Below, piece by piece: positions 19,262 to 30,975 of a stretch of DNA of 64,000 bases (positions are counted from its first letter, which is position 1; each line of letters opens with the position of its first letter). Origin of the DNA: an uncultured Lutibacter sp. (lineage in GTDB: Bacteria; Bacteroidota; Bacteroidia; Flavobacteriales; Flavobacteriaceae); NCBI RefSeq assembly GCF_947493565.1, contig NZ_CANLRG010000005.1, positions 248,001-312,000 of the forward strand, given 5' to 3'. The position numbers were made by a program, and so were the translations under genes. Under the pieces are notes generated by a model. That model saw only the letters and a program-made list of their open reading frames with translations. It was not told where the DNA came from and ran no database searches.

Positions 19262-19298
19262 AAACAAAAAGTGCTTCATTATGGAGCACTTTTTGTTT
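19262..19298 (+). terminator. carB terminator
   Basis: A 14-bp perfect stem (AAACAAAAAGTGCT with its complement) and a 9-base loop, 16 bp after the carB stop. Its 3' arm contains the TTTG that serves as the -33 box of the next gene. Confidence 0.85.
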
Positions 19299-19322
19299 AA
19301 TTAAAAAATTATAGTACTTTTG
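19292..19322 (+). promoter_or_regulatory. Promoter of the CarH-like regulator
   Basis: TTTG (19292-19295), 19 bases, then TACTTTTG (19315-19322): a perfect match to the consensus. Transcription would start near 19327, giving a leader of only about 15 bases before the TTG start. Confidence 0.75.
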
Positions 19323-19351
19323 TTCAATTAAAAATATTTAACATTGAACAA
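19320..19351. promoter_or_regulatory. Inverted-repeat operator over the regulator's own promoter
   Basis: TTGTTCAAT (19320-19328) and ATTGAACAA (19343-19351) form a perfect 9-bp inverted repeat 14 bases apart. It covers the end of the -7 box, the predicted start site and the TTG start codon. This is a likely autoregulatory site for the MerR/CarH-type protein. The same half-site recurs upstream of crtI. Confidence 0.6.
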
Positions 19352-20243
19352 CATAAAGACTGAATTTACGATTAAAGACTTGGAAAATTTTTCAGGGATT
19401 AAAGCACATACAATTAGAATTTGGGAAAAACGGTATAATATATTGCAGCCAAATAGAACAGAATCTAATATTCGCTATTATGATATTAGTAACTTACAAA
19501 AGTTATTAAACGTTTCCTTATTAAATGCTAATGGATTAAAAATTTCAAAAATAGCAGAATTACCCGAATCAAAATTAAATGCGTCGGTTAGAGAATTGGT
19601 AACAAAGAACGGAGTTGACAGCCAGGCTTCGAATTCTTTAAAGCTTTCTATGTTAAATTTTGATGAAAACTTATTTAATGTTACTTATAATAATTTAATA
19701 GCTCAATCATCTTTAAGAGATGTTTTTAAAAATATTTTTATTCCGTTTTTAAATGAAATTGGACTTTTGTGGCAAGTAAATTCTATTACGCCTGCCCACG
19801 AACATTTTATTACTAACCTTATTAAGCAAAAAATTAGTATTAATATTGAACGCTTGCAACTGTCATCTCCAACTAATTTCGATAAGGTTTTTGTGTTGTA
19901 TTTACCTTTAAATGAAATACATGAGTTAGGGTTGTTGTATTTACATTTTGAATTATTGCTACATGGTTACCAATCTATTTATTTAGGACAAAGTGTTCCC
20001 GTTGCCAATTTAAATGATGTACAAAAGGTTTACAACAATATTTGTTTCATTAGCTATTTAACTGTTGAGCCATCAAGATTATCTGTTTTGGAATATATAG
20101 ATGTAGTAAATAATTCTGTATTAAATAATAACGAAAATGAAATTTGGTTGTTAGGAAAAAAAGTTTCTGAGATGAATGAAAAATTAGACCTTCCAAACGT
20201 AAAAATGTTCGATTCTATCGAAAACTTGTTAAAAGAATTATAA
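19344..20243 (+). CDS. MerR-family CarH/LitR-type B12-binding light-responsive regulator
   Basis: A 299-residue protein. Residues 8-75 are a MerR winged helix-turn-helix (FTIKDLENFSGIKAHTIRIW, then KRYNILQPNRTESNIRYYD). Residues about 100-170 form the helical bundle that caps cobalamin, with the W-x9-EH signature intact (W143, E153, H154). Residues about 180-299 are the Rossmann-like B12-binding domain with ExHxxG at 191-196 (EIHELG, H193). In CarH of Thermus and Myxococcus these residues hold adenosylcobalamin, and light breaks the repressor tetramer, switching on carotenoid genes. Start is TTG at 19344; there is no nearby ATG. It sits immediately upstream of crtI and crtB. Photoreceptor function is inferred from the residues, not shown. 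Confidence 0.88.
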   Translation: MNNIKTEFTIKDLENFSGIKAHTIRIWEKRYNILQPNRTESNIRYYDISNLQKLLNVSLLNANGLKISKIAELPESKLNASVRELVTKNGVDSQASNSLKLSMLNFDENLFNVTYNNLIAQSSLRDVFKNIFIPFLNEIGLLWQVNSITPAHEHFITNLIKQKISINIERLQLSSPTNFDKVFVLYLPLNEIHELGLLYLHFELLLHGYQSIYLGQSVPVANLNDVQKVYNNICFISYLTVEPSRLSVLEYIDVVNNSVLNNNENEIWLLGKKVSEMNEKLDLPNVKMFDSIENLLKEL

Positions 20244-20248
20244 AAAAT

Positions 20249-20298
20249 ATTGAACAAAGTTGCATTTGTTTAATAAAATCGTATATTTGTTAAACAAA
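20249..20298 (+). promoter_or_regulatory. crtI promoter and operator-like repeats
   Basis: The -7 box TATATTTG is at 20282-20289, with GTTG ending at 20262 as the -33 box (19-base spacing). Three elements match the regulator's own operator half-site: ATTGAACAA (20249-20257), TTGTTTAAT (20266-20274) and the near-palindrome TTTGTTAAACAAA (20286-20298). The -7 box ends only eight bases before the ATG, so the mRNA should be leaderless or nearly so. Confidence 0.65.
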
Positions 20299-21758
20299 TG
20301 AAGAATATAGCAATAATAGGTTCAGGATTTTCATCACTTGCATCAGCTTGTCACTTAGCAAAAGCTGGTTATAATGTGACTATTTTAGAAAAGAACTCCA
20401 CGTTAGGAGGAAGAGCCAGAAAGTATGAGAAAGAAGGATTCAAGTTCGATATGGGACCAACGTGGTATTGGATGCCAGATGTATTTGAAAAGTTTTTTAA
20501 AGATTTTAATAAAAAGCCTTCAGATTATTATGAATTAGAGCGATTGTCTCCAGCATATCAAGTTTATTTTGGCAAGGAAGATTCCATTACAATTCCGGGC
20601 ACATTAAACGAAATTTACGAAGTATTTGAGAAAGAAGAGCCAGGAAGTTCAAAGCATTTAAAATCATTCTTAGATTCAGCTAAATTTAATTACGGGGTTG
20701 CAATTAATGATTTGGTGTATAAGCCGGGAGAATCAATTTCAGAATTAATCAATTTTACGACACTTTCAAAAGCGAATCAGTTTTTTACATCGATTAGTTC
20801 AACAGTTCGCAAAAGAATTAAGAATCATAAACTTCAACAGATTTTAGAATTTCCAGTGTTGTTTTTAGGTGCTAAACCATCAAACACTCCAAGTTTTTAT
20901 AATTTTATGAATTATGCAGATTTTGGTCTTGGTACGTGGCACCCAAAAGGAGGAATGTATGAAGTTGTTAATGGTTTTGTAAACTTGGCTAAAGAATTAG
21001 GTGTTGGGATTTTAACGAATCAAAATGTTGAAAAAATTGTAGTCGAGAATGGAGTTGTAAAAGGTGTTAATTCAAATTCAAAATTTATACAATCAGATAT
21101 AGTTATAAGCGGTGCAGATTACCACCATTCGGAAACTTTATTAGATAAAGAAAACAGAATGTACAAGGAAAAGTACTGGGAGAAAAAAACTTTTGCACCT
21201 TCAGCTTTACTATTTTATGTAGGATTCAATAAAAAAATAAAAAATGTAGAACATCATACCTTGTTTTTCGATACGAGTTTTGACGTTCATGCTAAAGATA
21301 TATACGATACGCCAAAATGGCCAAAGGAGCCGCTTTTTTATGCAAGTTTTTCAAGTATAACCGATAATAGTTTTGCCCCTATTTCAAAGGAAGCGGCGAC
21401 TTTTTTAATTCCTTTAGCGCCTGGATTAACAGATATTCCTGAAGTTCGAGAAGAATATTTCAAAAAAATTATGAATAGATTAGAAAAGTTAACTGGTCAA
21501 AGTTTAAAAGATGAAGTGGTATTTAAAGAGTCGTATTGTGTAAATGATTTTGTGAAAGATTACAATTCTTATAAAGGTAATGCTTATGGTTTGGCAAACA
21601 CATTATTTCAAACTGCTTTTTTAAGACCTAAAATTAGAAGTAACAAAGTAAAGAATCTATATTTTACTGGTCAATTAACAGTTCCGGGACCAGGTGTGCC
21701 TCCAGCAATCATTTCCGGAAAAATAGTTTCAGATCTAGTTATAAAAAACTCAAAATAA
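20298..21758 (+). CDS. crtI: Phytoene desaturase
   Basis: A 486-residue CrtI-type flavoprotein. The FAD/NAD dinucleotide fold is at the very N-terminus (IAIIGSGFSSLASACHLAKAG, with GxGxxS at 8-13), followed by GGRARKYEKEGFKFDMGPTW. The C-terminal FAD signature is NLYFTGQLTVPGPGVPPAI. It removes hydrogens from phytoene to give lycopene. It is the first gene of a carotenoid operon with crtB, an unknown, crtZ and the lycopene cyclase. The N-terminal motif leaves no room for another start, which makes the very short distance from the promoter believable. Confidence 0.95.
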   Translation: MKNIAIIGSGFSSLASACHLAKAGYNVTILEKNSTLGGRARKYEKEGFKFDMGPTWYWMPDVFEKFFKDFNKKPSDYYELERLSPAYQVYFGKEDSITIPGTLNEIYEVFEKEEPGSSKHLKSFLDSAKFNYGVAINDLVYKPGESISELINFTTLSKANQFFTSISSTVRKRIKNHKLQQILEFPVLFLGAKPSNTPSFYNFMNYADFGLGTWHPKGGMYEVVNGFVNLAKELGVGILTNQNVEKIVVENGVVKGVNSNSKFIQSDIVISGADYHHSETLLDKENRMYKEKYWEKKTFAPSALLFYVGFNKKIKNVEHHTLFFDTSFDVHAKDIYDTPKWPKEPLFYASFSSITDNSFAPISKEAATFLIPLAPGLTDIPEVREEYFKKIMNRLEKLTGQSLKDEVVFKESYCVNDFVKDYNSYKGNAYGLANTLFQTAFLRPKIRSNKVKNLYFTGQLTVPGPGVPPAIISGKIVSDLVIKNSK

Positions 21759-21783: not shown

Positions 21784-22623
21784 ATGAAACAGCTATTCGA
21801 CGAAACCTCATTTAAATGTAGCAAAATTGTTACCAGAAAATACAGCACTTCATTCTCATTAGCGGTGTATATGTTGTCTCCTAAAATTAGAGAAGCCATT
21901 TACAGTATTTATGCTTTTGTTCGTTTTGCTGATGAAATTGTAGATTCTTTCCATAACCATGAAAAAGAAATACTATTAAACGAGTTTGAAGCTGATTATT
22001 ATAAAGCTCATAAGAACAATATTAGCTTAAATCCTGTTTTAAATGCTTTTCAACATACGGTTAAAAAATACAATATTACAGACGATTTAATTCAATCGTT
22101 TTTAAAAAGTATGAAAGCAGATTTAAACAAAGAAACCTACAATACTGTTGAAGAATATAACGAGTATATTTATGGCTCTGCCGATGTTGTTGGTTTAATG
22201 TGTTTAAAAGTTTTTGTAAAAGGTGATGATAAAAAATATGATGAATTAAAATATTCTGCAATGAAATTGGGTTCTGCTTTTCAGAAAGTTAATTTTTTAC
22301 GTGATTTAAAAGATGATTATGAATTGTTAAATCGTTCATATTTTCCAGGTGTTAATTTAAAAGAATTAAATGCCAATGAAAAAGCTCAGATTATTGCAGA
22401 TATTGAGGCTGATTTCAACGATGCTTTAATTGGAATAAAAAACCTTCCAATGGAAGCAAAATTTGGTGTGTATACAGCCTATGTATATTATAAAAGATTG
22501 TTGAATAAATTGAGTAAAACACCATCAACTGAAATTTTAAACACACGTATTAGAGTTTCTAATCCTTTAAAAATAAGTTTATTAGCAAAATCTTTTGTAG
22601 TTTATAAACTTAATTTATTATAA
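21784..22623 (+). CDS. crtB: Phytoene synthase
   Basis: A 279-residue squalene/phytoene synthase family enzyme. The first aspartate-rich motif is D50-EIV-D54 (FVRFADEIVDSF), and the second lies in KVNFLRDLKDDY around residue 170. Both bind the diphosphates of two geranylgeranyl diphosphates through magnesium. It condenses them head to head to phytoene, the substrate of CrtI encoded 25 bp upstream. Its stop TAA overlaps the ATG of the next gene by one base. The GGPP synthase (crtE) that would feed it is not in this window. Confidence 0.95.
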   Translation: MKQLFDETSFKCSKIVTRKYSTSFSLAVYMLSPKIREAIYSIYAFVRFADEIVDSFHNHEKEILLNEFEADYYKAHKNNISLNPVLNAFQHTVKKYNITDDLIQSFLKSMKADLNKETYNTVEEYNEYIYGSADVVGLMCLKVFVKGDDKKYDELKYSAMKLGSAFQKVNFLRDLKDDYELLNRSYFPGVNLKELNANEKAQIIADIEADFNDALIGIKNLPMEAKFGVYTAYVYYKRLLNKLSKTPSTEILNTRIRVSNPLKISLLAKSFVVYKLNLL

Positions 22624-23123
22624 TGAAAATTTTTACAATAATAGTAGTATCGTTTTTAACTTTAAATTTTCAAACACCGCTTGAGAGCGCAAGGCAAGAT
22701 TTTCCGAATATAATGTCTTTAGAGCAAGCAAAAGAACACATAAGTTTATTAGAGAGTGATGATTCTCCGGAAGCAATAGGCTATACTGCGGCAATGATTT
22801 TAATGAAGTCGCGCTATGTAAAAGGGCCTTTTGCTAAATTGAAGTATTTTAAACAAGGAAAAAAATTATTGGATCAAGATATTGTTGAAAACCCAACAAG
22901 TATCGAGATTAGGTATATACGCTTTTTAATGCAAAAGCAAATACCTGATTTTTTGGGTTATAATAAAAATATTGAAGAAGATTTTAATATAATTTTTAAT
23001 AAAATAGTAACTTCAAACTTAAACAACAATTTTAAAATTAAAATATTAAATACTATGTTGTTGGTAGACGATTTAAGTGAAGTTAGAAAAAATAAAATTC
23101 ATCAAATACTAGATAAATTATGA
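22623..23123 (+). CDS. Unknown exported protein inside the carotenoid operon
   Basis: 166 residues starting with a hydrophobic segment (MKIFTIIVVSFLTLNFQTP) that looks like a signal peptide or anchor. A helical, TPR-like body follows (SLEQAKEHISLLESDDSPEAIGYTAAMILMKSRYV). I do not recognise a named family. The ATG overlaps the crtB stop and the end overlaps crtZ by 4 bp, so it is translated as part of the carotenoid operon. It may be an accessory scaffold or periplasmic protein linked to carotenoid deposition, which is inference from position only. I recall similar proteins at the same place in other flavobacteria. Confidence 0.75.
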   Translation: MKIFTIIVVSFLTLNFQTPLESARQDFPNIMSLEQAKEHISLLESDDSPEAIGYTAAMILMKSRYVKGPFAKLKYFKQGKKLLDQDIVENPTSIEIRYIRFLMQKQIPDFLGYNKNIEEDFNIIFNKIVTSNLNNNFKIKILNTMLLVDDLSEVRKNKIHQILDKL

Positions 23124-23560
23124 TATTTGCCTTAATTACAATAGCTACTTTTTTACTGATGGAATGTGTTACTTGGCTAACACATAAGTACGTTATGCAC
23201 GGTTTTTTGTGGTATTTTCACGAAGATCACCACCAACCAAGATATCAAAACTGGTTTGAACGAAACGATGTTTTTTTCGTGATTTTTGCAATTCCAAGTA
23301 TAGCTTTATTTTACTTTGGTGTTGAAGGAGGTTTAAACTATTTATTTTTTATTGGTTTGGGAATTATGTTGTACGGAATGGCCTATTTTTTAGTACACGA
23401 TGTTTTAATTCACAAGCGTTTTAAATGGTTCAATAAAACAAATAATAAGTATTTAATTGGCTTGCGTAAAGCACATAAAGTACATCACAAACATTTAGGA
23501 AAAGAAGAAGGTGAATGTTTTGGTATGTTATTCGTTCCTTTTAAGTACTTTAAAATATGA
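23120..23560 (+). CDS. crtZ: Beta-carotene hydroxylase (CrtZ type)
   Basis: A 146-residue membrane di-iron hydroxylase of the fatty acid hydroxylase/sterol desaturase superfamily. The histidine clusters are complete: HKYVMH (22-27), HEDHH (34-38), HDVLIH (93-98) and HKVHH (119-123). It adds hydroxyls to the 3 and 3' positions of beta-ionone rings, giving zeaxanthin. It overlaps its neighbours by 4 bp on each side. The length is slightly below the 160-175 residues of proteobacterial CrtZ but typical of flavobacterial ones. Confidence 0.92.
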   Translation: MIFALITIATFLLMECVTWLTHKYVMHGFLWYFHEDHHQPRYQNWFERNDVFFVIFAIPSIALFYFGVEGGLNYLFFIGLGIMLYGMAYFLVHDVLIHKRFKWFNKTNNKYLIGLRKAHKVHHKHLGKEEGECFGMLFVPFKYFKI

Positions 23561-24249
23561 CCGCTTTATACTTTATTATAAATGTAGCTTCGCTGTCAAT
23601 CCCATTTTTGTATAGTTTTGAAAAAAAAATGCGATTCATACAGTATTGGAAATCAGTATTATTAGCTATTTCTATTGTTGCTATACCATTTTTAATTTGG
23701 GATGTCTGGTTTACAAATATGGGGGTTTGGGGATTTAATCCAGCATATTTATTGGGTCCAACTATTGTAAATTTACCTTTTGAAGAGGTACTTTTCTTTT
23801 TCTTTATTCCGTATGCAAGTATTTTTACGCATTACGCTTTGTTGTATTTCTTTATAAATTTAGCATTGCCAAAAAAGCTTACAAAATTAATTACCATTGG
23901 TTTGTTAATTGTGGCAATTGTAATTGTGTTTTTTAATTACGATAAGTGGTATACGCTTATAAATTTTTCCGTTTTTGCAGCGCTTTTAATCTATGCGTTG
24001 GTAACTAAAGACACTATTTTAAAATCGTTTTATCTAACTTTTCTTGTGGTTTTAATTCCGTTTTTTATAGTAAACGGACTGTTAACAGGAAGTTTTATTG
24101 AAGATCAAGTTGTTTGGTATAACAATGCTGAAAATTTAGGAATTAGAATGGGAACTGTTCCGGTTGAAGATGCTTTTTATGCCTTTAGTATGTTGTATGG
24201 CGCAACGGTATTGATTGAAAAATTTAAGCCAATTTTTAATAAAAACTAA
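23557..24249 (+). CDS. Lycopene cyclase, fused heterodimer (CrtYcd type)
   Basis: A 230-residue, all-helical membrane protein made of two similar halves, each with the lycopene cyclase domain motif. The first is LPFEEVLFFFFIPY (PFEE at 74-77) and the second VPVEDAFYAFSML (PVED at 202-205). This matches the fusion of the actinobacterial CrtYc and CrtYd subunits and the archaeal enzyme. It closes the ends of lycopene to beta-rings. Its position between crtZ and the photolyase completes a lycopene to beta-carotene to zeaxanthin path. The photolyase ATG follows the stop directly. Confidence 0.9.
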   Translation: MTALYFIINVASLSIPFLYSFEKKMRFIQYWKSVLLAISIVAIPFLIWDVWFTNMGVWGFNPAYLLGPTIVNLPFEEVLFFFFIPYASIFTHYALLYFFINLALPKKLTKLITIGLLIVAIVIVFFNYDKWYTLINFSVFAALLIYALVTKDTILKSFYLTFLVVLIPFFIVNGLLTGSFIEDQVVWYNNAENLGIRMGTVPVEDAFYAFSMLYGATVLIEKFKPIFNKN

Positions 24250-25536
24250 ATGACAAACAAACAAGAAATTGCTATTTTTTGGTTTCGAAGAGATTTAAGA
24301 TTACACGATAATACAGCCTTGTTCTATGCGTTAAACTCAAAATATCCAGTACTTCCAATTTTTATTTTTGATGAAGCCATTTTAAATGAATTGCCAAAAA
24401 ACGATGCTCGCGTAAATTTTATTCACGATACGTTGAGTAACATAAATACAGATTTAACTAAAAATAATTCTTCATTTTACATTCAAAAAGGTGAAGTAAT
24501 TACTGTTTGGAAAGAGCTTTTAAATAAGTTCAACATAAAAAAAGTATATTTTAATAAAGATTATGAGCCTTATGCAATTAAAAGAGATACTGAAATAACC
24601 AATTTATGTGCTGAAAACAATGTTGAAGTGCACCAATATAAAGATCAGGTTATTTTTGAAGCTGGTGAAGTTTTAAAAGCTGACGGAAAACCTTATACAG
24701 TGTACACGCCTTTTAAAAATAAATGGTGGAATTTATTCAATTCGCAAGAACTAAAATTACTTCCTTCAGAAAATTATAAAGAAAACTTTTTAAAATCTAG
24801 CTTTAATTTCCCTTCTTTAAGCGACATTGGTTTTACCAAAAGCACAATAAAAGTAAGGCCAATAAATAAAAATGCAATTTTAGATTATCAAAACTTTAGA
24901 GATCTTCCAACGGTTGCCACTTCTAATAATTCTGTGTATTTAAGGTTTGGATTAATAAGTACGCGTAAATTATTTAAATATGCGCAAACTAAAAACGAAA
25001 CCTATTGCAACGAGCTTATCTGGAGAGAATTTTTTATGCAAATTTTGTATCACTTTCCAAATGTGGTGAATGAAAATTTTAAACCGAAATATAATTTTAT
25101 TCCTTGGCGAAATAAAGAGGAAGAATTTAAATTGTGGTGCGAAGGAAAAACAGGTTATCCAATTGTTGATGCAGGAATGCGCGAATTAAACCAAACTGGT
25201 TATATGCACAACCGAGTTAGAATGATTGTTGCAAGTTTTTTAAACAAACATTTGTTAATAGATTGGCGTTGGGGAGAAGCTTATTTTGCTGAAAAGTTAA
25301 TGGATTACGATTTAGCGGTAAACAACGGAAACTGGCAATGGGTTGCTGGAACAGGTTGCGATTCGGCTCCTTATTTTAGAGTTTTTAATCCAACAACGCA
25401 GCAACAAAAATTTGATCCAGATTTAAAATACGTTAAAAAATGGAACCCAAATTATAAAAATATTCCTGAAATTGTTGAACATAAATTTGCGCGTTTACGT
25501 TATCTAGAGGTTGTTAAAAAATCTTTAGTACAATAA
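24250..25536 (+). CDS. phrB: Deoxyribodipyrimidine photolyase / cryptochrome family
   Basis: A 428-residue class I-like photolyase. The N-terminal antenna-binding domain starts IAIFWFRRDLRLHDNTALF. The C-terminal FAD domain carries ELIWREFFMQILYHFP, then TGYMHNRVRMIVASFL, WRWGEAYFAEKLMDYDLAVN and NGNWQWVAGTGCDSAPYFR, the latter being the strongly conserved FAD/DNA contact and electron-path region. It should use blue light to split cyclobutane pyrimidine dimers. The antenna chromophore is not decidable by eye. It is the last gene of the carotenoid operon and meets the SDR gene tail to tail with one base between the stops. Confidence 0.92.
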   Translation: MTNKQEIAIFWFRRDLRLHDNTALFYALNSKYPVLPIFIFDEAILNELPKNDARVNFIHDTLSNINTDLTKNNSSFYIQKGEVITVWKELLNKFNIKKVYFNKDYEPYAIKRDTEITNLCAENNVEVHQYKDQVIFEAGEVLKADGKPYTVYTPFKNKWWNLFNSQELKLLPSENYKENFLKSSFNFPSLSDIGFTKSTIKVRPINKNAILDYQNFRDLPTVATSNNSVYLRFGLISTRKLFKYAQTKNETYCNELIWREFFMQILYHFPNVVNENFKPKYNFIPWRNKEEEFKLWCEGKTGYPIVDAGMRELNQTGYMHNRVRMIVASFLNKHLLIDWRWGEAYFAEKLMDYDLAVNNGNWQWVAGTGCDSAPYFRVFNPTTQQQKFDPDLKYVKKWNPNYKNIPEIVEHKFARLRYLEVVKKSLVQ

Positions 25537-27281: not shown

Positions 27282-27755
27282 TTAAATTTCTCCTACAACA
27301 AGTTTTGTGTTATTCGATTTTATATCATATTCTTCAATATATTTCATTCCAATTTGAATAGGACAATCTTTTACAAACGGCGCAATAAAATTATTTTTAT
27401 AATCGGTTTCTAAATTGGTAACATCGAACTCTGAAATTTCGCGTTTGTATTTTGCTGAAGTATGATGCGCATCTTCTAAAATTTCCTGATGAATGTGATT
27501 TATAGTATAAAAACCAGTTTCTATAATATTTTGGTAAGTATTTCTGGGTACAGTTGTAGGTCTTAAAATAAAGCCAAGTAGCGGCGGCGCAGAGCCTAAA
27601 TGTATTACCGAACTAAAAACAGCAACATTTGTAGTGTTATTTATAGATTTTGTTGCAATTAAGTTGGCCGATTTGTAACCAGTGCAACTGTTAATAAGGT
27701 TTATTTTATACAAATGCGCTAATTGATGTATTTCATCAATATTAAAATGCTTCAT
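27282..27755 (-). CDS. Flavin reductase family protein, truncated by an in-frame stop
   Basis: 157 residues before the stop; the uninterrupted frame would be 205. The FMN-binding split-barrel domain is recognisable: CTGYKSANLIATKSINNTTN, then VFSSVIHLGSAPPLLGFILR, TVPRNTYQNIIETGFYTINH and AHHTSAKYKREISEFD. Members bind FMN and reduce flavin or act as pyridoxamine-oxidase-like enzymes. The stop falls right after KLVVGEI, at the end of the last barrel strands, so the product could still fold but lacks the C-terminal segment. Its start overlaps the ABC1 kinase stop by one base, placing it in the TetR-ABC1-reductase operon. Confidence 0.8.
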   Translation of the reverse strand: MKHFNIDEIHQLAHLYKINLINSCTGYKSANLIATKSINNTTNVAVFSSVIHLGSAPPLLGFILRPTTVPRNTYQNIIETGFYTINHIHQEILEDAHHTSAKYKREISEFDVTNLETDYKNNFIAPFVKDCPIQIGMKYIEEYDIKSNNTKLVVGEI

Positions 27756-29068
27756 TATAAATTATTAAAATTGTTGATGTGAACTTCAGTTGCTTTTAAA
27801 TCGAACATTAAATTATACAATCCAAAAAATGTTCTGTTTATGTAAATAAAATGCTTTGAGCCTCTGTTACCATTCATTTTTTTAAGTTCAGTGCTTTTAG
27901 AATAACGCTCACCCAATTCAGCAATTTGTTTAAAGAAGTGTGGATCGGAAAAATCGAATACTTCTTGATGAAAAGGTTGCGTAAACAAACTTAACATATC
28001 GTGAAACATTGCAGTAAAAAAGGCTAATTCTTCAGGAGAATCATCAGCTCTTAAAATCTCTAATTCAAATAATTTTTGTTTAAAAATTTCAGGATTGTTT
28101 ATGTTCTCCTTTTTAGCCAATTCAAAATAGGGAACGTAAAAATCATTAGGAATGGTTTTTATACAGCCAAAATCTAAGGCAATTAAATCAGCGTTTTTTG
28201 ATATTAAAAAATTTCCAGGATGTGGATCTGCGTGTACTTTTTTTAATTTATGAATTTGATACATATAAAAATCCCACAAAGCTTGTCCTAGTTTATTTGC
28301 TTTTTCTTCATCGGTATTGTAAGCAGTAAATTCAGATAAATGTTCACCGTGCATCCAATCCATAGTAATAATTCTTTCCGAAGAATATTCTTCATAATAT
28401 TTTGGAAAATATAAGTTTGGAATGTGTTTGCACGCTTCTGAAATTTCTTTACTTTGCTGAATTTCAATTAAATAGTTGGTTTCTTCAATTAGTTTATCTT
28501 CAACTTCTTTAAAATATTTATCAGAATCTTTTCCTTTAATATTAAACATACTAATGGCAATAGGTTTTACCATAGTTAAATCGCTAGAAATACTGTTTGC
28601 AATACCAGGATATTGAATTTTAACAGCTAACTGTTTGCCATCTTTTTCAGCTTTGTGTACTTGCCCAATGCTTGCTGCATTTACTGAATTAGCATTAAAG
28701 GTGTCAAATATCTCGTTTGGAGCTTTTCCAAAATATTTTTTAAATGTTTTTACAACTAGTGGTGCAGATAATGGTGGTACAGAAAATTGCGACAGAGAAA
28801 ATTTCTCTACATAGGCTTGTGGTAAAACGCTTTTTTCCATACTCAACATTTGAGCAACTTTTAAAGCGCTACCTTTTAACTTTTTCAATCCGTCGTATAT
28901 ATCTTCAGCATTATTTTTGTTGAGTTTTGCTTTAGCTTCGTCTTCTGTACTAACTAATTTATCTCCATAATACTTTAAATAATTTACACCAACTTTTGCG
29001 CCAGTTTGCATTAGTTTGGTCGCTCTTTGTATTTTAGAAACTGGAATTGTATCTATAGTTTTTAGCAT
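27755..29068 (-). CDS. ABC1/UbiB family atypical kinase
   Basis: A 437-residue ABC1-domain protein. It shows the family's KxGQ-like segment (GLKKLKGSALKVAQMLSMEKSVLP), GQVHKAEKDGKQLAVKIQYPG (lysine for ATP), KVHADPHPGNFLI (catalytic loop) and LIALDFGCIK (metal-binding Asp). In proteobacteria UbiB supports ubiquinone synthesis. Flavobacteria use menaquinone, so a different lipid or quinone task is likely. Plastid ABC1 kinases act in photo-oxidative stress and prenyl-lipid metabolism, which fits this neighbourhood. It lies 6 bp after the TetR gene and overlaps the reductase start. Confidence 0.9.
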   Translation of the reverse strand: MLKTIDTIPVSKIQRATKLMQTGAKVGVNYLKYYGDKLVSTEDEAKAKLNKNNAEDIYDGLKKLKGSALKVAQMLSMEKSVLPQAYVEKFSLSQFSVPPLSAPLVVKTFKKYFGKAPNEIFDTFNANSVNAASIGQVHKAEKDGKQLAVKIQYPGIANSISSDLTMVKPIAISMFNIKGKDSDKYFKEVEDKLIEETNYLIEIQQSKEISEACKHIPNLYFPKYYEEYSSERIITMDWMHGEHLSEFTAYNTDEEKANKLGQALWDFYMYQIHKLKKVHADPHPGNFLISKNADLIALDFGCIKTIPNDFYVPYFELAKKENINNPEIFKQKLFELEILRADDSPEELAFFTAMFHDMLSLFTQPFHQEVFDFSDPHFFKQIAELGERYSKSTELKKMNGNRGSKHFIYINRTFFGLYNLMFDLKATEVHINNFNNL

Positions 29069-29074
29069 AATAAT

Positions 29075-29731
29075 TTAGTTAATGTTCATTTTTTCTTTGT
29101 ATAAAAACTTCCCAAAATCTATAATGCTTTTTAAAGGAGTTGAGTCAATTAAATCAAAGCTAGTGTTTACAGATTTTTCAATAAAAATGTCTGTTTTTTC
29201 AAAATTGGCAGAGCTATCATCTAACCAAAACTTTATGGTAATTAACAGTTGAAGCCAAGCAGTTTCTTTAATGCTTTTTTGTTGAATTTGAACAATGTTT
29301 TTTTGTTTTAAATCTATGGTTTCAATTCCAAGCGCATCTATATAATTTGTAAAGCTTGTTTTTAAGCTAGATAGTGCTTCTAATTTTTTTAAATCTAACT
29401 TTTTTGAATCTAAAGTTGCTACAACATAACTTCTGTTGGCAGTTAAGTTTTCAAAAAATGTATAATAGAAGCTTAAAAGTTTGTTGCGAGCATCAAATGT
29501 TTCGTAATCGTTACTTTTTGCTAATGCAGCAATGGTGTTTTCGAAAAAGGCATTGAAAATTGATTTCTCAACAGCTTCAAACGATCCAAAGAATTTGTAA
29601 AAAATAGCTTCTTCAAATTTGTTTTGTTTTGCAAATGCATAAACCGATGAGGGTTTCGAGTTGTTCTCTAAAACATAATCTATATAGAAACTTATAATGT
29701 CTGTTGAATTTAATTGTTTTGTGCGTCCCAT
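29075..29731 (-). CDS. TetR/AcrR family transcriptional regulator
   Basis: 218 residues with an N-terminal helix-turn-helix in TetR layout (TDIISFYIDYVLENNSKPSSVYAFAKQNKFEEAIFYKFFGSFEAVEKSIF is the region; YKFFGSFEAV takes the usual Y-x-H-F position) and an all-helical ligand/dimer domain. The start codon follows a 166-bp divergent region shared with the pterin genes. It probably controls its own operon (TetR, ABC1 kinase, flavin reductase) and perhaps the divergent one. The ligand is unknown. Confidence 0.82.
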   Translation of the reverse strand: MGRTKQLNSTDIISFYIDYVLENNSKPSSVYAFAKQNKFEEAIFYKFFGSFEAVEKSIFNAFFENTIAALAKSNDYETFDARNKLLSFYYTFFENLTANRSYVVATLDSKKLDLKKLEALSSLKTSFTNYIDALGIETIDLKQKNIVQIQQKSIKETAWLQLLITIKFWLDDSSANFEKTDIFIEKSVNTSFDLIDSTPLKSIIDFGKFLYKEKMNIN

Positions 29732-29766
29732 AATTTTATATATTGTCTAATAAATATTTATACAAA

Positions 29767-29877
29767 TTAAACAAAAATAATCAATTAAAAAAAATGGTTA
29801 CTATGTTAAAAGTTTATTAATGTATAGAGAAAATAAATAATCAATAGTTAAATGTTAAAATAAAATGTTTAACTTTG
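29767..29877. promoter_or_regulatory. Divergent promoter region, TetR operon / pterin operon
   Basis: For the plus strand the -7 box is TAACTTTG (29870-29877), 20 bp before the ATG. TGTTAAA (29853) and TGTTTAA (29866) lie just upstream of and within it. On the other side TTAAACA (29767-29773) is the inverse of the same element. These resemble the half-sites at the carH and crtI promoters. The -33 box is weak, which fits an activated or regulated promoter. Confidence 0.5.
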
Positions 29878-29897
29878 TGTAAAATAAAATAAACATA

Positions 29898-30311
29898 ATG
29901 AATTTTAAGGTAGCAATATCAAGAAGAGAACATTTTAATTCGGCTCACAGGTTGCACAATGCTAATTGGACAGATGAAATGAATTTAAAAGTATTTGGTA
30001 AATGTAACAATCCAAATTATCACGGGCATAATTACGAATTAGAAGTAAAAGTAATTGGCACAGTTAATGAAGATACAGGTTATGTTATAGATACCAAACA
30101 GTTGTCGGATTTAATAAAGGAGCACGTATTAAATAAATTCGACCATAAAAACTTGAATTTAGATGTTGCTGAATTTAAAGATTTAAATCCTACTGCAGAA
30201 AATATTGCAATTGTTACCTATAACATATTAAGACCTTTAATAGAGGAAAACTACGAACTAAAAATTAAGCTTTATGAAACACCAAGAAACTTTGTTGAAT
30301 ATCCCTACTAA
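29898..30311 (+). CDS. 6-pyruvoyl-tetrahydropterin synthase / QueD family
   Basis: A 137-residue T-fold enzyme. The zinc histidines are visible: EHFNSAHRLH (H17) and the YHGHNYELEV pair (H42, H44), with the conserved cysteine in FGKCNN (C36). The catalytic Asp/His (FDHKNLNLD) and Glu (KLYETPRNF) follow. It converts 7,8-dihydroneopterin triphosphate to 6-pyruvoyl- or 6-carboxy-tetrahydropterin, leading to biopterin-type cofactors or queuosine. The next gene, folE, makes exactly its substrate, and the two reading frames overlap, so a pterin pathway is favoured over queuosine. Member-level specificity cannot be settled by eye. Confidence 0.88.
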   Translation: MNFKVAISRREHFNSAHRLHNANWTDEMNLKVFGKCNNPNYHGHNYELEVKVIGTVNEDTGYVIDTKQLSDLIKEHVLNKFDHKNLNLDVAEFKDLNPTAENIAIVTYNILRPLIEENYELKIKLYETPRNFVEYPY

Positions 30312-30975
30312 CGGATCAAGATTAAACGGTTTTACTTTTGATGAAATTGGAGACGATCATTTATATACAGGAATTGAAACACCTTTAAAAGAAACTGCTT
30401 TTGATATTTCTGACGAAGAAAAAAAAGAAAAGATAGCCGATTTATTTTCGCAAATAATGGATGTTATGGGGTTAGACTTAACCGACGATTCTTTAAAAGG
30501 AACACCTAAAAGAGTGGCGAAAATGTATATTGAAGAAATATTTTCAGGATTAAACCCTGAAAATAAACCCAAAATTGCATTGTTTGATAATAAATACAAG
30601 TACAACCAAATGTTGGTTGAAAAAAACATTCAATTTTATTCTAATTGTGAGCATCACTTTGTACCCATTTTTGGAAAAGTACACGTAGCTTATGTTTCTT
30701 CAGGAAAAGTAATTGGATTGTCGAAAATTAATAGAATTGTGCAATATTTTGCTAACAGACCACAAGTGCAAGAGCGTTTAACAAACCAAATTGCTTTAGA
30801 ACTTTCTGAAATTTTAGACACCAAAGATATTGCAGTTATAGTTGATGCAAAGCATTTATGTGTAGCTTCAAGAGGAATTAAAGACGATTCTTCAGCTACG
30901 GTTACTAGCTATTATGGAGGCGTATTTAATACACCAGAAAAAATTGTTGAACTTCAAAATTATTTAAAATTATAA
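30274..30975 (+). CDS. folE: GTP cyclohydrolase I
   Basis: 233 residues from the ATG at 30274, which overlaps the upstream gene by 38 bp. The TTG codons about 20 bases later are alternatives, because the conserved part begins at FTFDEIGDDHLYTGIETPL. The core matches type I enzymes: LTDDSLKGTPKRVAKMYIEEIFSGL is the N-terminal region, then FYSNCEHHFVPIFGKVHVAYV (zinc Cys/His), KINRIVQYFANRPQVQERLT and HLCVASRGI (second zinc Cys). It opens GTP to dihydroneopterin triphosphate, the entry to folate and pterins. It shares an operon with the 6-PTPS homologue and stress genes. Confidence 0.93.
   Translation: MKHQETLLNIPTNGSRLNGFTFDEIGDDHLYTGIETPLKETAFDISDEEKKEKIADLFSQIMDVMGLDLTDDSLKGTPKRVAKMYIEEIFSGLNPENKPKIALFDNKYKYNQMLVEKNIQFYSNCEHHFVPIFGKVHVAYVSSGKVIGLSKINRIVQYFANRPQVQERLTNQIALELSEILDTKDIAVIVDAKHLCVASRGIKDDSSATVTSYYGGVFNTPEKIVELQNYLKL

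Follow-up and report, generated by a model that had tools for sequence, protein, structure and literature searches.

A CarH-like MerR regulator and a predicted inverted operator at a carotenoid and photolyase locus of Lutibacter

The window, that is, the whole stretch of 64,000 nucleotides analysed here, comes from a Lutibacter genome (G000) of 3.10 Mb that is 100% complete. It contains a carH-like gene, an open reading frame of 299 amino acids with a TTG start, followed on the same strand by a run of genes that extends from crtI to a photolyase:

19344-20243, plus strand: carH-like gene, TTG start; MerR winged helix at aa 8-73, four-helix cap at aa 98-166, Rossmann-like cobalamin domain at about aa 178-299
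20298-21758, plus strand: crtI-type phytoene desaturase (NCBIfam CrtID, 740.5 bits, cut-off 640)
21784-22623, plus strand: crtB, phytoene synthase family (SQS_PSY)
22623-23123, plus strand: 166-aa protein of unknown function in the crt operon (no family in Pfam and NCBIfam searches)
23120-23560, plus strand: probable CrtZ-type hydroxylase, which we take it to be from its histidine motifs (no family above a cut-off)
23557-24249, plus strand: lycopene cyclase (family profile searches)
24250-25536, plus strand: DNA photolyase, end of the run (family profile searches)

The TTG start is supported by the homologues, which initiate at the same place with ATG, TTG or GTG. The first-pass annotation had described a MerR winged helix with a cobalamin domain at 19344-20243, directly upstream of crtI and crtB. 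The domains are borne out by PF13411, PF02607 and the predicted fold, and the position by the starts of crtI at 20298 and crtB at 21784 on the same strand. The 166-aa gene that separates crtB from the probable crtZ has homologues in 8 matches. A hypothetical gene beside crtB has been proposed as a light regulator in Chryseobacterium lacus (PMC7064467, in the part consulted), and that the two genes are related is a guess from position alone. Beyond the photolyase, genes for a DUF2867 SDR, a flavin reductase, an ABC1 kinase and a TetR_C_23 protein lie on the other strand, and then PTPS, folE and further genes follow on the plus strand.

Two domains place the protein in the broad LitR/CarH family of MerR regulators: the N-terminal winged helix matches the MerR_1 profile (PF13411; 1.4e-12, 47.9 bits, cut-off 21.6), and the four-helix cap is recognised by B12-binding_2 (PF02607; 1.4e-10, 41.6 bits, cut-off 23). 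The profile of the Rossmann B12-binding domain (PF02310) gave no match to the protein even at E 1. The best NCBIfam family is CarH (equivalog NF052513, 1.3e-19), with a score of 70.5 bits that falls short of the equivalog cut-off of 400. A sequence search of the PDB retrieved LitR/CarH of Thermus thermophilus at E 4e-12, with the alignment confined to residues 8-228, and identity with CarH of T. thermophilus HB8 (TtCarH) is about 22% over 80%. Comparison of a predicted structure with CarH, which had been proposed as a check when the gene was first annotated, gave a clear match. In the AlphaFold2 model (pLDDT 87.5, pTM 0.81, 59 sequences), every domain is formed through to the C-terminus, and the first twelve rows of a Foldseek search were full-length TtCarH (5c8f, 8.4e-14). 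By VIA, residues 91-299 of the model fit on residues 79-274 of TtCarH with a Z of 20.6 and an rmsd of 2.4 over 194 residues, which cover the cobalamin domain. Lower Z values were obtained for a photocobilin (8j2w, 18.8), CtMerR (8jbt, 18.7) and methionine synthase (16.7). The model thus predicts the Rossmann-like cobalamin domain behind the cap that is expected of class I of the LitR/CarH family.

At the level of single residues, with the TtCarH numbering verified on the CarH sequence from pTT27 of T. thermophilus HB8, W131, E141, H142, E175, H177 and G180 of TtCarH correspond to W143, E153, H154, E191, H193 and G196. The equivalents of W131/E141/H142/H177 and the ExHxxG motif, which define class I, are all present. 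The first-pass annotation had credited the protein with the complete set of CarH residues: W143-x9-E153-H154 and E191-x-H193-x-x-G196 are indeed in place, and completeness does not stand. His132, the cobalt ligand of the light state in TtCarH, is replaced by Gln144 (Q in 127 of 150 aligned proteins); G174 of GxxH is replaced by N190, in a column with N in 126 and G in 11 of the proteins; and the second glycine of the GG pair is K272, next to a retained G271 (142/150). Likewise, the SignatureFinder pattern for light-responsive cobalamin domains is represented by GxxW (GLLW, 140-143), EH (153-154) and GxxxP (GQSVP, 215-219), and NEIH stands at 190-193 in place of GxxH. Because Q144 replaces H132, NxxH replaces GxxH and the second glycine of GG is lost, the protein is, by its residues, a CarH-like variant that is neither the NCBIfam CarH equivalog nor of the bis-His type.

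Conservation was assessed in an alignment of 150 proteins, the window's own and 149 others, which joins a set of 70 (the earlier alignment of homologues, with the window's protein included) and a set of 80; some of these proteins are paralogues, and others repeat a species that two collections have in common. W143, E153 and E191 are each found in 150/150, H193 in 148, H154 in 147 and G196 in 144. The exceptions are N at H193 in L062 and L063, and R at H154 in L049, L146 and L148. Only 7 of 209 columns in the cobalamin domain are invariant (F111, G140, W143, E153, L187, E191 and G215). Judged from this alignment, the cobalamin-site motif of the carH-like proteins is beyond chance. In L062 and L063 (G085 and G096), W143, E153 and H154 are kept and both genomes retain an adenosyltransferase; this regulator is perhaps a B12-independent offshoot.

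A survey of cobalamin genes, also suggested with the original annotation, found uptake, adenosylation and AdoCbl-using enzymes in the genome. One locus holds several of the cobalamin genes:

L175:6867-12146, own genome: cobalamin locus with riboswitch, BtuB-like receptor, DUF5074 beta-propeller-like protein, periplasmic binding protein and second adenosyltransferase

A single cobalamin riboswitch (91.9 bits) immediately precedes the BtuB-like receptor (TIGR01779, 89.6 bits, below the cut-off), and the periplasmic binding protein and the second, weaker adenosyltransferase are divergent from it. The main adenosyltransferase scores above its cut-off, as do the cobalamin enzymes methylmalonyl-CoA mutase, IcmF and MetH. 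Because riboswitch, receptor, adenosyltransferases and cobalamin enzymes are all encoded, AdoCbl should be present. Across relatives, an adenosyltransferase occurs in 72 of 73 genomes with a homologue of the regulator vs 35 of 47 without, a comparison that is confounded by genome reduction and ignores kinship and genome size. One genome (G045, 99% complete) has the carH-like gene and operator sites and no PF01923 adenosyltransferase.

These observations bear on a different reading, in which the protein represses independently of B12, as CarA of Myxococcus and class II LitR do, the light signal comes from a partner (an antirepressor or another photoreceptor) and the cobalamin domain is a relic or a part used for dimerisation. 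CarA and class II LitR are relatives described as working without B12 (PMC9304148 and PMC9758184, in the parts consulted), and the undetected PF02310, the loss of H132 and of one GG glycine and the N at H193 in one lineage would be in line with such a protein. However, a relic would be expected to lose its ligand residues, and W143, E153, E191, H193 and H154 persist in 147-150 of 150 proteins; class II LitR retains the four-helix part only, whereas the Rossmann-like half is modelled here with good confidence; and the adenosyltransferase accompanies the homologue, with the limits just given. B12-independent repression is, on balance, unlikely.

The candidate operator first emerged from the upstream sequences of 80 loci, in which TTTGTTTAA coincides with the -7 box and TGAACAA, always the same distance away, overlies the start codon. 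The flavobacterial promoter consensus is TTG / TAnnTTTG, and the predicted operator is an inverted repeat, TTGTTYA-N18-TRAACAA, which is placed as follows around the regulator gene and crtI:

19293-19322, plus strand: flavobacterial-type promoter of the carH-like gene (TTG 19293-19295, N19, TACTTTTG 19315-19322)
19320-19351, unstranded: predicted operator of the carH-like gene, TTGTTCA-N18-TGAACAA, perfect; covers the end of the -7 box and the start codon, with the same geometry in relatives
20226-20257, unstranded: degenerate copy adjoining the crtI operator, 1 mismatch, left half within the end of the carH-like gene; weak, as one-mismatch sites are at background genome-wide
20260-20289, plus strand: crtI promoter (TTG 20260-20262, N19, TATATTTG 20282-20289)
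20266-20297, unstranded: predicted crtI operator, TTGTTTA-N18-TAAACAA, perfect; starts right after the -33 TTG, includes the -7 box, and its last base precedes the crtI ATG

The 2 perfect copies listed are the only ones in the 3.1 Mb genome, in which the reversed-pattern control has 0. Each of the two stretches proposed earlier for gel shifts (19290-19360 and 20240-20310) contains one of them. The half-site TRAACA fits the CarH half-site TnnACA. The mapped CarH operators in the literature consulted are tandem direct repeats of TnnACA, three tandem 11-bp repeats in TtCarH (PMC9304148, in the part consulted). Such an arrangement was not found: direct pairs reach at most 21 of 137 loci at any spacer of 0-40, vs 119 of 137 for the inverted pair at spacer 18. 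The crtI ATG (20298) starts 9 nt past the end of the -7 box (20289), which makes a leaderless or almost leaderless transcript probable; the close relatives L008-L012 share this layout.

The geometry of the operator recurs in relatives. The exact pair is found with spacer 18 in 100 of 150 upstream stretches, and no other spacer of 4-40 turns up in more than 4 of them; the gap before crtI holds a spacer-18 pair in 48 of 121. With the looser core TGTnnA/TnnACA, spacer 18 is seen in 119 of the 137 loci of the main clade, and the pair precedes codon 1 by exactly 23 nt in 110. In an even sample drawn later from the phylum, 15 of 17 loci of the same family, one of which (G038) had been used before, have the site. 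Of 66 readable starts, 65 have AAC as the second codon, even though the gene bodies favour AAT over AAC by about two to one (1083 vs 530; these counts ignore kinship), which argues that the DNA word itself is preserved. For the other orders of the class, this sample has the spacer-18 pair at 2 of 12 loci, and one of the two is the distant-type locus of G069, of the same family; no conservation of the operator was thus seen outside Flavobacteriales.

Degenerate sites carry little information. With one mismatch allowed, the genome has 30 sites vs 26 for the reversed pattern, near background, and the analysis therefore used only sites that are perfect or stand at a conserved place; allowing up to 3 mismatches gave 65 sites in the window, where 66.2 are expected. 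The core TGTYYA-N18-TRRACA, a pattern picked after the sites were seen, has 4 matches in the window against 0.11 expected and was found in 0 of 100 shuffles. The looser TGTnnA-N18-TnnACA has 8 against 2.0 expected, and 3 of the 8 (26064, 36089 and 46426) are off the four promoters discussed here. In the genus, 41 perfect sites were found in 39 of 40 stretches fetched, and 10 of them fall within an open reading frame, so that some perfect sites must be due to chance.

The four core sites of the window are on the promoters of the carH-like gene, crtI, TetR and PTPS, the last two of which belong to further probable targets:

27282-29731, minus strand: probable second target unit (TetR_C_23 29075-29731, ABC1 kinase 27755-29068, flavin reductase 27282-27755)
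29743-29774, unstranded: predicted operator copy on the promoter of the TetR-ABC1 kinase-flavin reductase unit, 1 mismatch to TTGTTYA-N18-TRAACAA; -7 box TATTTTTG on the minus strand at 29779-29772
29865-29896, unstranded: predicted operator copy on the PTPS-folE promoter, core TGTTTA-N18-TAAACA exact, 2 outer mismatches; -7 box TAACTTTG at 29870-29877 inside
29898-30975, plus strand: probable third target unit (PTPS 29898-30311, GTP cyclohydrolase I folE 30274-30975)

The TetR site aligns ungapped in every one of 8 genomes, and so does the PTPS site in every one of the 6 that extend to it. In G032 both sites are perfect and 122 bp apart, the same distance as in the window. Among the 39 genus stretches, further sites target PTPS in 11 and TetR in 9. 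At loci of other families (L055, L058, L062, L063), the regulator, crtI and crtB are followed in a single run by genes for PTPS, folE, SDR, flavin reductase and photolyase; in L062 and L063 the regulator gene heads an uninterrupted crtI-crtB-PTPS-folE-SDR-flavin reductase-photolyase run. Judged from the sites, the regulated set probably takes in, besides the crt operon, the promoters of the TetR-ABC1-flavin reductase and PTPS-folE units. Perfect sites also precede related lipoprotein-like genes that look by eye as if they carried fasciclin domains (L221, L230, L232, L233 and L234, from five genus genomes).

The presence of the operator tracks the presence of the regulator, as judged by comparing 120 related genomes. 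A perfect site occurs somewhere in the genome in 55 of 57 with a close homologue vs 6 of 63 others. The two close homologues without a perfect site are in G047 and G084. Of the six genomes with a site and no close homologue (G027, G028, G031, G044, G062 and G092), three (G044, G062 and G092) have the distant type; the site of G027 is inside a gene (L245); in G031 the crtI match begins at base 3 of a contig, so that the upstream gene may have been lost to an assembly gap; and no explanation was found for G028. In the genus, among the matches listed, 26 genomes with the gene or a pseudogene have 70 perfect sites (control 22) and 12 without it have 11 (control 4). The carH-like gene is accompanied by a full-length crtI in 22 of 25 genomes and by fragments in 3; in 12 genomes without the gene, the crtI orthologue is absent from 11 and cut by a contig end in one (G031), and G002 has a carH-like pseudogene and no crtI orthologue. 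Two stretches titled as MAGs of Bifidobacterium breve and Rhizobium sp. (L124, L139) carry a clearly flavobacterial gene and operator and are probably mislabelled or contaminated bins.

The inverted repeat could in principle be owned by another regulator, above all by the TetR_C_23 protein encoded at 29075-29731, since the site occurs in 43 of 47 genomes with this TetR family and a copy is on the tetR promoter itself. We consider this very improbable and set it aside. TetR_C_23 is absent from 15 genomes that have both a close carH homologue and a perfect site; the site is fixed on the carH promoter over the start codon; and its half-site is the TnnACA of CarH. Furthermore, a clade of distant paralogues shows the same geometry with other middle bases in the half-site (TTAGACA), at spacer 18 in 6 and spacer 19 in 7 of 13 loci, some of which are counted twice. 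Four genus genomes (G013, G020, G033 and G035; L065, L068, L069 and L070) encode a second CarH-like protein that is 36-39% identical; in L068 and L070 its gene is beside folE, SDR and GPx genes, and candidate sites have TTAGACA half-sites with spacer 18-19.

Taken as a whole, we consider it probable that the carH-like protein represses carotenoid, photolyase and pterin genes in the dark in dependence on AdoCbl and is released by light, and it likely works like CarH. The analysis establishes the domains, the predicted fold, the conserved residues, the sequence and geometry of the predicted operator, its association with the regulator and the cobalamin genes; AdoCbl binding, repression and light release are inferred, as is the sensing of green/blue light put forward in the first-pass annotation. 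In the dark, AdoCbl would be sandwiched between W143, E153 and H154 of the cap and H193 of the Rossmann-like domain, and the protein would sit on inverted TRAACAA half-sites 18 bp apart, over the -7 element and transcription start. Because the sites cover the -7 box and the transcription start, repression, with autoregulation, is the simplest reading; its own gene, the crtI-to-photolyase run, the TetR-ABC1-flavin reductase unit and the PTPS-folE unit would be kept off. In the light, the cobalt-carbon bond would break, the assembly would loosen and the genes would be turned on. Against the dark-repressor reading can be set the changes at H132, G174 and the second GG glycine, the missing PF02310 match, the NCBIfam CarH score of 70.5 of 400, the N at H193 in L062/L063, the missing adenosyltransferase in G045, the near-background numbers of degenerate sites, the missing perfect site in G047 and G084, and the TetR family that also accompanies the operator (43/47).

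The residues fall short of the full TtCarH set, and for this reason the bis-His light switch cannot be transferred to this protein. In TtCarH, the H132A variant is described as still mostly tetrameric after light (PMC10442372, in the part consulted). With no histidine at this position, release would need another route, which might resemble that of light-responsive cobalamin domains with Gln (SasPcob), Arg (CtMerR) or Tyr (AbDPcob) there (PMC11796333, in the part consulted). Alternatively, the AdoCbl-bound form could repress in response to cobalamin supply, with light playing a minor part since the His132 route is missing. Q144, a glutamine found in 127 of the 150 aligned proteins, together with the salvage-type genes of the genome (riboswitch and BtuB-like receptor), would suit such a cofactor sensor. 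Nevertheless, the three proteins just mentioned respond to light without this histidine, the genes that have a site, or belong to the same run, serve photoprotection (carotenoid, photolyase, pterin), and the light genes of LitR in Pseudomonas putida include PhrB and FolE (PMC9758184, in the part consulted); a sensor of supply alone is quite unlikely.

The closest known systems are TtCarH, the cobalamin domains of SasPcob and CtMerR, CarA and class II LitR. Like TtCarH, the protein has a MerR domain, a four-helix cap and a Rossmann-like domain, keeps six key residues, adjoins carotenoid and photolyase genes and has the half-site TnnACA; unlike TtCarH, it has Q144, N190 and GK for GG, and its predicted operator consists of two inverted half-sites with 18 bp between them, where TtCarH has three 11-bp direct repeats in tandem. 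It shares the lack of His132 with SasPcob and CtMerR (VIA Z 18.8 and 18.7), of which SasPcob is a photocobilin that binds cobalamin and biliverdin and is no MerR regulator. CarA of Myxococcus xanthus is also a MerR relative on a crt promoter, with a site described as inverted repeats (PMC9304148, in the part consulted), but it acts without B12 and is relieved by CarS. Class II LitR (Pseudomonas PplR1 and PmlR2) likewise controls photolyase and folE, and the probable target set here resembles its light genes; its site, T(G/A)TACA-N12-TGTA(C/T)A, has TRTACA half-sites (PMC9758184, in the part consulted). It differs in having no Rossmann half, another half-site, a spacer of 12 and not 18, and a LOV protein as partner. 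Inverted sites thus have parallels in the wider family, in CarA and, with spacer 12, in class II LitR.

Flavobacterial carotenoid clusters have been described with 'a MerR regulator' whose signal is given as unknown in the parts consulted (PMC11855829, PMC5887021, PMC8683446), and a light-induced Chryseobacterium was reported without any known light regulator (PMC7064467, likewise in part). In the open PMC literature, a search scope outside which subscription papers and preprints lie, neither CarH function in flavobacteria nor the TTGTTYA-N18-TRAACAA operator was found. What is new here is the predicted operator: a named site with fixed geometry allows a short bench test and makes regulons readable from sequence. 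Homologues are common, with 83 of 120 relatives at E 0.001 and 73 of 120 at E < 1e-30, and 47 of 198 genomes in an even draw of the phylum; the species collection has at least 592 stretches with one. With Q144, the family offers a natural test of B12 photoreceptor function without the second histidine. More broadly, it is possible, though we regard it as doubtful, that flavobacteria have a widespread branch of their own of B12 photoreceptor repressors, with an inverted operator and the bis-His switch abandoned. As flavobacteria probably must salvage cobalamin, light and vitamin supply together would then set the synthesis of carotenoids, photolyase and pterins, and B12 starvation would turn on photoprotection in the dark.
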